Part shown: positions 31,386-34,490 of the stretch, one piece after another | How positions within the stretch are numbered: position 1 is the stretch's first letter | Layout: each line of letters starts with the position of its first letter | DNA from: Acinetobacter sp. | GTDB taxonomy: Bacteria > Pseudomonadota > Gammaproteobacteria > Pseudomonadales > Moraxellaceae | Assembly: GCA_031277915.1 (NCBI GenBank) | Contig: JAITLL010000012.1 | Span: forward strand, 1-64,000 | Direction: 5' to 3' | DNA: 64,000 nucleotides | Translations under genes and position numbers: made by a program | Notes under the pieces: model-generated | Told to the model about the DNA's origin: nothing | Seen by the model: only the letters and a program-made list of their open reading frames with translations | Database searches by the model: none

Positions 31386-31544
31386 TTACCAAACACCTTT
31401 TTTTAATTGCTGTTTAGTATCTTGTCTATCCCGACGATGCTGGGCACGAGGTTTTTCTGTCTCATGCATGCCACCCTTTTGAAGTAAAGGTGACAGAGCT
31501 ACGTGGTTACGAACCTTAATTTTTGGCATTTCTTTAATTTTCAT
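31386..31544 (-). CDS. Small basic protein encoded directly after rtcB
   Basis: The 52-residue ORF begins three bases after the rtcB stop on the same strand and was found by reading the sequence. It is strongly basic and soluble: MKIKEMPKIKVRNHVALSPL, then LLQKGGMHETEKPRAQ and HRRDRQDTKQQ. There is no membrane segment. Short basic proteins with a SPLLxKGGxH-like core and Arg/Lys tail recur in bacteria and phages as far as I recall, but I know no function. Adjacency suggests co-transcription with rtcB and a possible RNA-related role. Confidence 0.6.
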   Translation of the reverse strand: MKIKEMPKIKVRNHVALSPLLQKGGMHETEKPRAQHRRDRQDTKQQLKKGVW

Positions 31545-31547
31545 GTT

Positions 31548-32752
31548 TTAACCTTTAATACATAAAACTTGTTTAAGAGTATGAACTACTTCAATAAGAT
31601 CTGATTGGTTCGCCATGACTTCATCAATATCCTTATAGGCACTGGGGATCTCATCGACAACACCGCTATCTTTACGACATTCAATACCTTGAGTTTGCTC
31701 AATTAAATCTTGTTGATTAAAAAGAATCTTTGCTTTGCTGCGGCTCATTTTTCGTCCAGCACCATGAGAACAAGAACAGAAAGACTCAGGATTTGCTTTG
31801 CCTTTTACAATATAGGAGCGTGCTCCCATGGAGCCAGGGATAATTCCTAACTCATCTAAGCCTGCTCTAATCGCTCCTTTTCGAGTAATCAAAAGATTTT
31901 CACCAAAATGGGTTTCTCGACTTACATAATTATGATGACAATTAATTGCTTCTTTTGTCATTTGAAACGAGGGGAGAATAGGTCGGATTGCTTCTAAGAC
32001 TAATCGCATCATTTCTTTACGATTTTCAAAAGCATATTCTTGAGCCCACTCCACAGCTTCTACATAATCATTAAAACTGTTTGAGCCTTCAGCAAAATAA
32101 CTTAGGTCCTTATCCGGTACATGCCCAAAGCGATGTTGTGCTTCTTTCTTGGCGAGTTCAATAAAATAAGTACCAATGACGTTACCCAGTCCTCGGCTAC
32201 CTGAATGTAGCATTACCCAAACATATTGATTTTCATCAATACATAACTCTATAAAGTGATTACCGCCTCCTAATGTGCCTAATTGTTTTTGCCAAGTCGC
32301 ATCAAACTGCCGAAGCATGCGAACTAGACCTGGATGTTTCTTTATAATTGGTTGTAAACGCTTTTCGAGCGGAATAATACTCGATGCTTTAGCTTTACCT
32401 GTTTATGCAAAGCAAAGCCGATAGGTACTTTACGTTCGATTGCATCACGTAATCGACTTAAGTTATCGGGAAGCTGTGAAGCTTTTAGGCTTAAACGAAT
32501 TGCATTCATTCCACAGCCAATGTCTACACCGACTGCAGCTGGAATAATCGCATGTTTAGTCGGGATAACACTTCCTACAGTTGCGCCTTTTCCTACGTGA
32601 ACATCTGGCATAACGGCAATATGTGAATATATAAATTGCAGCTGTGCCATTTTCTTCAATTGTTCGATACTTTCACTATCTATATCTTGAGTGAAAATTT
32701 TAACGGGGACACCATATTGTGCCTCTTCGTTTAATATTTTTTGTATGCCCAT
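31548..32752 (-). pseudogene. rtcB: RNA ligase RtcB, interrupted by one frameshift
   Basis: RtcB joins RNA 2',3'-cyclic phosphate (or 3'-phosphate) ends to 5'-hydroxyl ends using GTP and manganese. The reading is in two parts: 32752 to 32342 (start MGIQKILNEEAQYG, with GVDIGCGM metal motif) and 31548 to about 32402 in the -1 frame (LGTLGGGNHFIE, SGSRGLG, NCHHNYV, and SCSHGAGRKMSR with the guanylylated His). All catalytic motifs survive. Joining the frames gives about 401 residues, the family length. Restoring one G in CAGG (complement of 32398-32399) would rebuild the protein. The overlap also holds two A-AAG sites, so programmed slippage is not excluded. Start 32752 has AAGAG upstream. Confidence 0.85.
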
Positions 32753-32786
32753 AATTTTTCTCTTATTTTTCTGTCCGAATAGGCAT

Positions 32787-32809
32787 AAAAAAACCTAGCG
32801 AATGCTAGG
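32787..32809 (-). terminator. Intrinsic terminator inside the rtcB leader
   Basis: On the minus strand CCTAGC (32809-32804) and GCTAGG (32799-32794) pair around ATTC, followed by seven T (32793-32787), 35 bases before the rtcB start. It can act as an attenuator because an upstream arm competes for its 5' side. Confidence 0.75.
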
Positions 32810-32882
32810 TCTTAAATTCGAGCATTCGGACAAGTGAATTAAATTTGTACACTTGTCCGTGAGCTGACATCGTGCCAAATCG

Positions 32883-32912
32883 TTACTGTTTTTTACCTTG
32901 TAGTATTGACAT
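32883..32912 (-). CDS. Nine-residue leader peptide ORF upstream of rtcB
   Basis: ATG at 32912 with the strong signal AGGAGG (32918-32923) five bases upstream opens an ORF for MSILQGKKQ, ending TAA. The signal is stronger than that of most genes here. The stop lies 23 bases before the first pairing arm of the leader. There is no run of one amino acid, so classical amino-acid attenuation is not obvious. Confidence 0.5.
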   Translation of the reverse strand: MSILQGKKQ

Positions 32913-32956
32913 GATGTCCTCCTTTATTTAAAAGTGCCGTTGAAAATCTGAACGGC

Positions 32957-32984
32957 ATTTTACCTGTTTTTAACTAAAGATCAA
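32957..32984 (-). promoter_or_regulatory. Candidate promoter of the rtcB leader
   Basis: Minus-strand TTGATC (32984-32979), a 16-base spacer, and TAAAAT (32962-32957) suggest a start near 32950. The hairpin at 32935-32957 would then overlap the start and might be an operator dyad instead of an RNA fold. Confidence 0.35.
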
Positions 32985-33029: not shown

Positions 33030-34490
33030 TTAATCTTGCTCTGGCTTTACATTCATTTTGTCATAACTAATTAATTTGGTTTTATATTTCCATTTATATC
33101 CGAGCCAAATCACTAAGAATAAAGGCAAACTAATATAAGTAGAAAGTAAGCCCATCCAGTCAATTTTCCCACCCAAAATAGCTTGATAATTTTGGCCTAA
33201 GATAATGATTGAACACAGAATGAATGCAAACCAAGGTGCAAATGGGAAAAACTTGGCACGATATGCTAAATCTTCAAGTTTGTAACCTTGAGCGATATAA
33301 CCTTTACGGAAACGATAATGTGAAATTGCAATACCTAACCAGACAATGAAACCACACATCCCTGACATGTTGAGTAACCAGTTAAAGACTTGCTTTTCAC
33401 CAATAAATGTCGTTAAGAAACAGAATGCAGCAATAAATGTCGTTGCATATAGCGCATTCATTGGAACACCACGATTGTCTAGTTTTGCAAACCATTTTGG
33501 TGCACGGCCTTGTTGAGCCATGTCAAATAACATACGGGTAGAGGAATACATGCCTGAGTTACCCGCCGATAAAATGGCAGTCAAAATAACCGCATTCATT
33601 AAGCTCGCAGCGAAAGCAAAGCCTACTTTCTCATAAAGTAAAGTAAAAGGAGAAAGAGCTACATTTTCTGTTGTCGCAGCTTGCAATAAATTTGGATCAT
33701 CATAGGCAATGAGTGTACCGATAATGAAAATACACAAGATATAGAATAATAAAATTCGCCAGAAAATCTGTTTAATTGCAAGAGGAATTGTTTTCTTTGG
33801 ATCTTTCGATTCACCCGCAGCAACACCAACCATCTCGGTTCCCTGAAATGAGAACCCTGCAATCATGGCAACTCCAATCATAGCCTGTAAACCACCCACA
33901 AAAGGCGCGTCTTTGTAGGTCCAGTTGCCAAAAGTGGCTACACCCGGTGTCAACATCAACTTAATTATCATGGCGATACCAATGATAATGAAGGCAATAA
34001 TCGCAATAACCTTAACCATCGAGAACCAGAATTCACTTTCACCGAAACCTTTTACACTCATCGCGTTAATCATGAAAATGATAACGAGGAAAAGGGCACT
34101 CCAGTAAAATCCGGGAATATCTGGAAACCAGAATTTCATAATAAACTGTACAGCAACAAGTTCAAATGCAACCGTAATTGCCCAGTTGTACCAATAATTC
34201 CAGCCTAGAGCGAAACCAAAGCCATCTTCAACATAGCGACTGCCATAGGTAAAAAATGCGCCGGATGTTGGGGTATGAGTCGCAAGCTCACCTAAACTTG
34301 TCATTAAGAAGTAAATCATAATACCAATAAGAGAGTAAGCGAGTAGAGCCCCACCAGGGCCTGCGTTTGCAATGGTTGATCCAGAAGCAAGGAAGAGACC
34401 TGTACCAATGGAACCACCAATGGCGATCATATTCAGATGACGAGCCCCAAGCTTTCGCTGGAGTTTTTCAGGAGCATGTGTTTCGCTCAT
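33030..34490 (-). CDS. lysP: Amino acid permease, LysP-like
   Basis: The 486-residue inner-membrane protein has 12 membrane segments of the APC superfamily AAT group. The N-terminus KLGARHLNMIAIGGSIGTGLF and the segments GGALLAYSLIG, FGFALGWNYWYNW, FSFQGTEMVGVAAGES and AVILTAILSAGNSGMY are very like E. coli LysP as I recall it, so proton-coupled lysine uptake is the best call; other cationic or neutral amino acids remain possible. It follows rsmC after 21 bases and is probably co-transcribed with it. No lysine riboswitch is seen in front. Confidence 0.82.
   Translation of the reverse strand: MSETHAPEKLQRKLGARHLNMIAIGGSIGTGLFLASGSTIANAGPGGALLAYSLIGIMIYFLMTSLGELATHTPTSGAFFTYGSRYVEDGFGFALGWNYWYNWAITVAFELVAVQFIMKFWFPDIPGFYWSALFLVIIFMINAMSVKGFGESEFWFSMVKVIAIIAFIIIGIAMIIKLMLTPGVATFGNWTYKDAPFVGGLQAMIGVAMIAGFSFQGTEMVGVAAGESKDPKKTIPLAIKQIFWRILLFYILCIFIIGTLIAYDDPNLLQAATTENVALSPFTLLYEKVGFAFAASLMNAVILTAILSAGNSGMYSSTRMLFDMAQQGRAPKWFAKLDNRGVPMNALYATTFIAAFCFLTTFIGEKQVFNWLLNMSGMCGFIVWLGIAISHYRFRKGYIAQGYKLEDLAYRAKFFPFAPWFAFILCSIIILGQNYQAILGGKIDWMGLLSTYISLPLFLVIWLGYKWKYKTKLISYDKMNVKPEQD

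Follow-up and report, generated by a model that had tools for sequence, protein, structure and literature searches.

AbsR28 RNA of Acinetobacter as a probable leader-peptide attenuator upstream of an rtcB gene

The RNA encoded immediately upstream of an rtcB gene in the 64,000 nt of Acinetobacter sp. DNA analyzed here (the window) is best explained as a leader-peptide transcription attenuator which turns rtcB on when ribosomes stall, and we regard this reading as highly probable. Comparison of related sequences shows a short upstream ORF, six helices and linkage to rtcB, and for the order of events, the stalling signal and the role of a pairing region near the gene start (P3) we infer the scheme set out below. 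An initial annotation of the window had suggested a terminator/antiterminator layout 5′ of rtcB, with comparison among Acinetobacter as its own check, and this layout is supported by the comparative pairing tests. Its interpretation is partly supported: it overlooked the upstream ORF, the probable source of the signal, namely ribosome stalling. It had also held that no leader riboregulator was described for rtcB, which does not stand. The region is that of AbsR28 (RF02606; PMC3976366), and in the available text of three sources (PMC3516279, PMC12057347, PMC13041342) the leader PA5471.1 is placed before armZ (PA5471), a gene of the RtcB family.

All parts lie on the minus strand. A candidate sigma-70-type promoter (TTGATC-16-TAAAAT, 32957..32984) matches 9 of 12 consensus positions and would give a start at approximately 32949. 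Promoter-like sites in that upstream region were at chance level in a scan of the window and the window score (9.5) is unremarkable taken alone, while across 73 leaders the best upstream promoter score averaged 10.58 against 8.70 (sd 0.82) in shuffles. The RNA at 32770..32949 matched the AbsR28 covariance model RF02606 over its full length (model positions 1–180 of 180) with 209 bits against a gathering score of 50. The element is thus longer than first proposed, with a start near 32949 and with an upstream ORF and two further helices that had been overlooked. Its predicted fold has an energy of −64.2 kcal/mol compared to −37.8 ± 4.2 in 200 dinucleotide shuffles (z −6.2), none of which was as good. 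The neighbor of the leader opposite rtcB, an ORF at 33030–34490, is presumably amino-acid-permease-like.

The upstream ORF ATGTCAATACTACAAGGTAAAAAACAGTAA (32883..32912) encodes MSILQGKKQ and is preceded by a Shine–Dalgarno (SD) sequence AGGAGG at 32918–32923. Its start-codon area forms region 1 (32906..32919), for which region 2 was identified as partner by the minimum-energy fold and by permutation tests. Region 2 (32866..32880) is the arm directly past the stop codon and may pair with region 1 or region 3. The conserved CUCACG (32858–32863) and region 3 CGGACAAGUGUACAAAU (32843–32859) together occupy 32843..32863, with region 2 or region 4 as partner. Region 4 (32821..32836), the central segment of the initial annotation, may pair with region 3, region 5 or P3. 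Region 5 CCUAGCAUUCG (32799..32809) comprises the 5′ arm and loop of the terminator and is the antiterminator partner of region 4, while region 6 (GCUAGG, 32794–32799) and the U7 tract (32787–32793) complete the intrinsic terminator (32787..32799). P3 (32772..32780), near the rtcB start, was identified in permutation tests as a second downstream partner of region 4. The ladder therefore runs 1:2, 2:3, 3:4, 4:5 (antiterminator) and 5:6 (terminator), plus 4:P3 beside rtcB.

The three pairings proposed earlier for the central segment were recovered: CGGACAAGTG (32850–32859) with CACTTGTCCG (32827–32836) over 10 bp and ATTCGGACA (32772–32780) with TGTCCGAAT (32824–32832) over 9 bp as described, and AGCATTCG (32799–32806) with CGAATGCT (32821–32828) over 8 bp rather than the 7 given. 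The terminator was likewise found with its stem, loop and T7 (CCTAGC-ATTC-GCTAGG-T7, 32787–32809). The arms had been called mutually exclusive; the 10-bp hairpin and the antiterminator share only 2 nt in the window and so compete rather than strictly exclude one another. It should also be noted that UAUGCCUAU (32779–32787), past the U-tract, can pair with AUGGGCAUA (32744–32752) at the rtcB start as a possible start-codon hairpin, seen in the minimum-energy fold of this leader, so that translational control may exist as well.

A short ORF with an SD sequence was present in all 73 Acinetobacter leaders, with ATG in 72 and GTG in one, 5–10 nt past GGAG, and was 9 codons long in 62 of them (range 7–17). 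As the ORF was searched for by these criteria, only the contrast between frames counts as a test. An in-frame stop lies ahead of the conserved CUCACG in 73 of 73 leaders, against 42 and 33 for the two other frames; among 17 divergent representatives the ORF frame had such a stop in 17 and the others in 11 and 6. The leader peptides vary (MSILQGKKQ, MPALQGTTT, MLTLENNTN, MQNLEINT), so it seems that translation and not the peptide matters. This suggests, from the sequences, a general sensor of stalling and not a sensor of a single amino acid.

RtcB (PF01139) was detected in 71 of 150 Acinetobacter genomes, where two separable paralogues occur, here called rtcB-A and rtcB-B. The gene following the leader in the window is rtcB-B (31548..32752, start codon 32752–32750), which was found in 70 of the 150 genomes, 43 of these also holding rtcB-A. 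The leader was upstream of rtcB-B in 70 of 70 loci. RF02606 itself matched 86 of the 150 genomes at E ≤ 0.001, 65 of them above the cut-off, and the 73 leaders used here consist of 71 matches of at least 41.9 bits, L072 (32.9 bits, adjoining rtcB) and L073, which was found through its rtcB gene. The leader of L073 is too diverged for the Rfam search; its parts are nevertheless in order. Two further matches without rtcB (L074 and L075, 31.4 and 30.5 bits) showed no such leader in 500 nt each and were dropped from the counts.

Helices were tested by calculating duplex energies of all 5′ arms with all 3′ arms and comparing cognate with permuted partners (5000 permutations). For 17 Acinetobacter representatives, at most 85% alike and drawn from the 73 leaders, 1:2 (z −5.7), 2:3 (z −6.1) and 3:4 (z −6.0) were each matched or exceeded in 0 of 5000 permutations. 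The terminator 5:6 showed little covariation (z −2.7, 595 of 5000), and pairing of region 4 with the post-terminator region (P3) gave z −2.3 (77 of 5000, 15 leaders). The antiterminator 4:5 showed no covariation within the genus (z +1.1) because both of its arms hardly vary. Control pairings gave z 0.7 (1:3), 1.9 (2:4), −0.2 (2:5) and −0.7 (3:5), with one control, 1:4, also negative (z −2.0, 168 of 5000). When 2:3 was tested more strictly, on the nucleotides not shared with 1:2 and 3:4, z was −1.6 (285 of 5000), or −3.8 (2 of 5000) with region 2 lengthened by 3 nt. The joint fold of regions 2 and 3 had an energy of −8.8 to −17.6 kcal/mol in all leaders but one (72 of 73), the exception being L073 at −3.2. 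A possible resemblance between region 2 and part of the 23S rRNA was set aside, region 2 not being conserved in divergent leaders.

Outside the genus, relatives of rtcB-B were taken as the best 80 of 508 from named genomes, and 37 of 194 genomes of the order matched; a part of the upstream regions was read by eye. Ten outside leaders were found with the same plan in largely different letters. Four come from Alkanindiges (L132), Moraxella cuniculi (L134), a gammaproteobacterial MAG (L135) and Neisseriaceae ESL0693 (L136), and six from six families of the order (L193, L196, L197, L200, L201 and L202); L133, a near-copy of L132, was left out of the test. The six belong to 29 order-wide loci, 21 of which had no such leader by eye, one (L194) being ambiguous and left out and one (L198) having only 155 nt upstream. 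In the upstream regions of 12 of 23 Psychrobacter loci inspected by eye, no such leader was seen.

Within these ten leaders every helix of the ladder was supported, with z −7.2 for 1:2, −5.4 for 2:3, −5.5 for 3:4, −3.7 for 4:5, −5.3 for 5:6 and −5.7 for 4:P3 (each 0 of 5000), against −1.1 to +1.5 for seven control pairings. The cognate partner was the best of its row in 9 of 10 cases for 1:2, in 4 for 4:5 and in 6 for each of 2:3, 3:4, 5:6 and 4:P3. Regions 1–6 were delimited by eye in knowledge of the model, a bias towards cognates, and the controls shared the same cuts; the post-terminator region was taken without such fitting, as the last 130 nt at most. Changed yet matching arms of region 4 and P3 are exemplified by ACCUUCCGGC with GCCGGAAGGU in L200, GCUUCCGGA with UCCGGAAGC in L197 and GCGUCCAAG with CUUGGACGC in L134, the weakest matches being those of L135 and L193 (−10.2 and −10.6 kcal/mol). 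The element before rtcB has these features of a leader-peptide attenuator: a short upstream ORF with a ribosome-binding site, an intrinsic terminator before the structural gene, and antiterminator and alternative helices with compensatory change, of which 4:5, nearly invariant within Acinetobacter, gives none in that genus. In L196, P3 may sit within an alternative gene start. The Neisseriaceae record L136 has the full leader plan before an rtcB 72% identical to Acinetobacter rtcB-B, which could reflect transfer or deep conservation. A class-wide search with the region 4/region 5 core matched 49 of 369 genomes; judged by the matched letters only, these matches, bar the window's own, were taken as chance.

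The proposed switch would operate as follows. A constitutive promoter would make the leader, and a ribosome translating the 9-codon ORF to its stop would hide region 2, which region 1 would hide if no ribosomes were present. With region 2 hidden, 3:4 would form, 4:5 would be weakened, the terminator 5:6 would form and transcription would end; AbsR28 is probably the short transcript left when the switch is off. A ribosome stalled early in the ORF, possibly by a tetracycline-class drug, by a damaged or missing tRNA or by damage to the ribosome, would cover region 1 and leave region 2 free. Region 2 would then pair with region 3, releasing region 4 to hold region 5, and RNA polymerase would read through. 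After read-through, region 4 would finally pair with P3 beside rtcB.

Energetically, the mean advantage of the terminator over the antiterminator was 7.2 kcal/mol with 3:4 and 3.5 kcal/mol with 2:3 in 17 leaders (the window and 16 of the 17 representatives, without L073), the shift being in the expected direction in 16 of the 17. Helix 2:3 thus weakens the terminator at equilibrium and does not abolish it, so that a kinetic decision is needed, as is relied upon by known attenuators. In folds of the nascent RNA with region 1 masked, 4:5 was present in 73 of 73 leaders, and 2:3 belonged to the minimum-energy structure in 8 of 17 representatives and, over the full set, in 23 of 73 leaders, that of the window not among them; 3:4 and 4:5 coexisted in most leaders. 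The numbers for 2:3 weaken the model where the A. baumannii group is concerned, and kinetics must be assumed.

On balance we lean towards a broader reading, in which this is an unrecognized and widespread RNA element on canonical RtcB ligases of several families of the order and of one Neisseriaceae record. Its leader ORF, indifferent to sequence, would read stalling of any cause, 4:P3 would lock the read-through state, and AbsR28 would be the aborted transcript, possibly recruited in trans.

Published expression data bear on the proposed signal. In RNA-seq after 30 min of tigecycline, an inhibitor of translation, rtcB and the directly downstream AB57_3343 rose 252-fold, the highest increases reported in the available text (PMC7652931; Li et al., 2020), where the same gene is also cited as up-regulated in strain MDR-ZJ06 (Hua, 2014). 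The tigecycline-induced gene is taken to be rtcB-B, given the small ORF 3′ of the window rtcB-B and the gene content of G085, the genome with the best match to RF02606 (231 bits), which holds rtcB-B only. In the same text the response is discussed as either direct or indirect, and no leader is proposed (PMC7652931). The attenuator would offer a mechanism for this response, which in that one data set is the strongest transcriptional change of A. baumannii under tigecycline and was left open by the authors. An RtcB family gene rose 2.6-fold after 10 min of minocycline, according to the part of PMC9741440 seen. In a trmB mutant an RtcB family protein is given at 0.40-fold in the accessible portion of PMC10653896; this value is left unexplained by the attenuator model and is not obviously as predicted.

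The available text of PMC3976366 describes AbsR28 as an Acinetobacter sRNA which was seen by Northern blot, measures approximately 180 nt by RACE and is encoded between the lysine permease gene A1S_2838 and A1S_2839, a gene regarded at that time as hypothetical. The RNA is reported from every growth phase tested there, as expected of a constitutive promoter. The published 3′ end falls at 32770, which is 17 nt past the U-tract and just after P3, and this counts against the attenuator. The RACE used poly(A) tailing (PMC3976366, same text), and as the template is A-rich at this point the end may stem from internal priming on read-through RNA, or else from genuine processing. The main texts of six AbsR28 papers leave rtcB unmentioned (PMC11796373, PMC3976366, PMC11426457, PMC5320573, PMC5538643 and PMC12455925), and the accessible part of the open-licence literature holds no description of an Acinetobacter rtcB leader regulator or of AbsR28 as an rtcB leader. 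The published RNA and the present leader are the same RNA at the same coordinates, described at first as a free sRNA to which no function was assigned and later as a Mn2+-dependent regulator of tssM.

It is accordingly conceivable that AbsR28 is chiefly a stand-alone trans-acting sRNA, a Mn2+- and Hfq-dependent repressor of tssM mRNA, with folds that serve the sRNA; we consider this improbable. The available text of PMC11796373 reports pairing with tssM, decay by RNase E and a downstream A1S_2839 transcript unchanged by deletion of absR28. The last point counts against an attenuator if the construct kept the promoter and lost the terminator, as the model then predicts more rtcB transcript; an unchanged A1S_2839 is possible with a construct that lacks the promoter as well as the leader or carries an inserted cassette. 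A sRNA role would also fit the three of 73 loci (L045, L047 and L054) that keep the leader without rtcB-B, one of them with an rtcB remnant, a finding which hints at an rtcB-independent role or at recent loss of rtcB. Against it stand the rtcB linkage in every rtcB-B locus, the recurrence of this architecture, in mostly different sequence, ahead of rtcB in other families, and the conservation of the SD sequence, AUG and stop of the ORF and of P3, for which a sRNA has no need. The three loci without rtcB-B retain the upstream ORF, helices and terminator, and P3 is degenerate or gone in them by eye. The trans-acting and attenuator roles could coexist.

Deletion of absR28 would also remove the control element of rtcB, so phenotypes of such mutants need a control in cis; a catalogued sRNA under study as a secretion-system regulator would be reinterpreted. 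The AbsR28 mutations of the A. baylyi MGD6 lines (PMC11426457, available text) could be rtcB-leader alleles.

RtcB enzymes use Mn2+, and the RNA could be a Mn2+ riboswitch feeding back on its Mn2+-dependent ligase. Binding of Mn2+ by AbsR28 (KD ~6 μM), a changed lead-cleavage pattern and weaker binding by some point mutants are given in the accessible text of PMC11796373 and favor this idea, which we judge very unlikely since no ligand is needed to account for the upstream ORF and the covarying ladder. The mutant numbering in that text does not fit the letters of the window RNA (PMC11796373).

Slightly less likely still is a terminator acting as a fixed insulator, with rtcB transcribed from its own inducible promoter past the terminator and the tigecycline effect being indirect. 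It would agree with the AT-rich space past the terminator and with the response as discussed in the available text of PMC7652931, whose authors proposed no leader. Between the U-tract and the rtcB start lie 34 nt in the window, 32–45 nt in 43 of 70 loci, 46–100 in 24 and 200–277 in three, and none of seven sigma-70-like matches falls in this gap. A fixed insulator moreover needs no covarying 2:3, 4:5 or 4:P3 helix. Insertions in L049, L053 and L073 place 172–242 nt between the U-tract and P3, and P3 still lies beside rtcB. P3 reached 8 of 9 in 54 of the 70 loci, 7–8 in 12 and below 7 in four, these values being those of the best 9-mer and biased upward.

Control by RtcR and sigma-54, which governs rtcBA in E. 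coli and had been brought in by the initial annotation, deserves next to no credence here, as RtcR (PF06956) was not found in the window genome (assembly 91.84% complete; E. coli control genome positive), which holds rtcB-B only, and sigma-54 consensus matches in the window were at chance (42 against 43 expected). RtcR occurred in 44 of 150 genomes, the same 44 as rtcB-A when the listings were compared by hand (fragments in G145 left out of the rtcB-A count), so it accompanies rtcB-A only, although the two lie far apart in some genomes such as G064 and G123. The RtcR system shares stress-induced RNA repair with the proposed attenuator and differs in its protein activator. As 43 of the 44 genomes with rtcB-A and RtcR also carry rtcB-B with its leader, they have two rtcB genes and two control systems; if the attenuator reading is true, one gene would answer to broken RNA through RtcR and the other to stalled ribosomes.

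The attenuator resembles the trp- and his-type attenuators of enterobacteria in its alternating helices governed by ribosome position. It differs from them in that codons for one amino acid do not occur in a run, the peptide varies, and the ladder has one rung more as well as P3, a partner past the terminator. The closer parallel is PA5471.1/armZ of P. aeruginosa, which according to the available text of PMC3516279, PMC12057347 and PMC13041342 shares a short leader ORF, of 13 codons in PA5471.1, a constitutive promoter, a terminator, read-through upon stalling and a target of the RtcB superfamily. Induction by ribosome-targeting drugs is also shared, as reported for A. baumannii rtcB in the parts seen of PMC9741440 and PMC7652931. 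No P3 was seen described for the PA5471.1 leader in those texts. The armZ product belongs to the PRK09588 release-factor-H-coupled subfamily (PMC3516279, in the text available) and Acinetobacter rtcB-B does not: the intact rtcB-B of L001 scored 193 bits against the PRK09588 cut-off of 407 and 158 against the TIGR03073 cut-off of 271.8, and two relatives from family f2, taken to be Pseudomonadaceae, scored 591 and 552 for PRK09588. The Acinetobacter leader therefore appears to work like PA5471.1/armZ and yet to be a separate system. In family f2, five of seven loci (L229, L231, L233, L234 and L235) had such a gene and, by eye, a 13-codon leader ORF, which unlike that of AbsR28 contains complementarity to the SD sequence inside the ORF (by eye, L229). 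A link between stalling and RNA repair as in the armZ leader, on another RtcB subfamily, suggests more than one event of origin or spread for this strategy.

In the window, rtcB-B is read as two ORFs (32342–32752 and 31548–32318) because of a frameshift. PF01139 scored above its cut-off in both pieces and the gene is intact in relatives; the frameshift is either genuine decay or an assembly error. A split rtcB-B was also seen in G087 (L060). Directly 3′ of rtcB, the ORF list gave a small protein of 52 aa (31386..31544, minus strand), basic and with the pattern KxRNxVALSPLLxKGGxHE, for which no Pfam or NCBIfam match was found. A relative was present in 55 of 73 loci, and the protein may be the co-induced AB57_3343. 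It was retained at all three loci without rtcB-B, and in L195 it lies upstream of rtcB.
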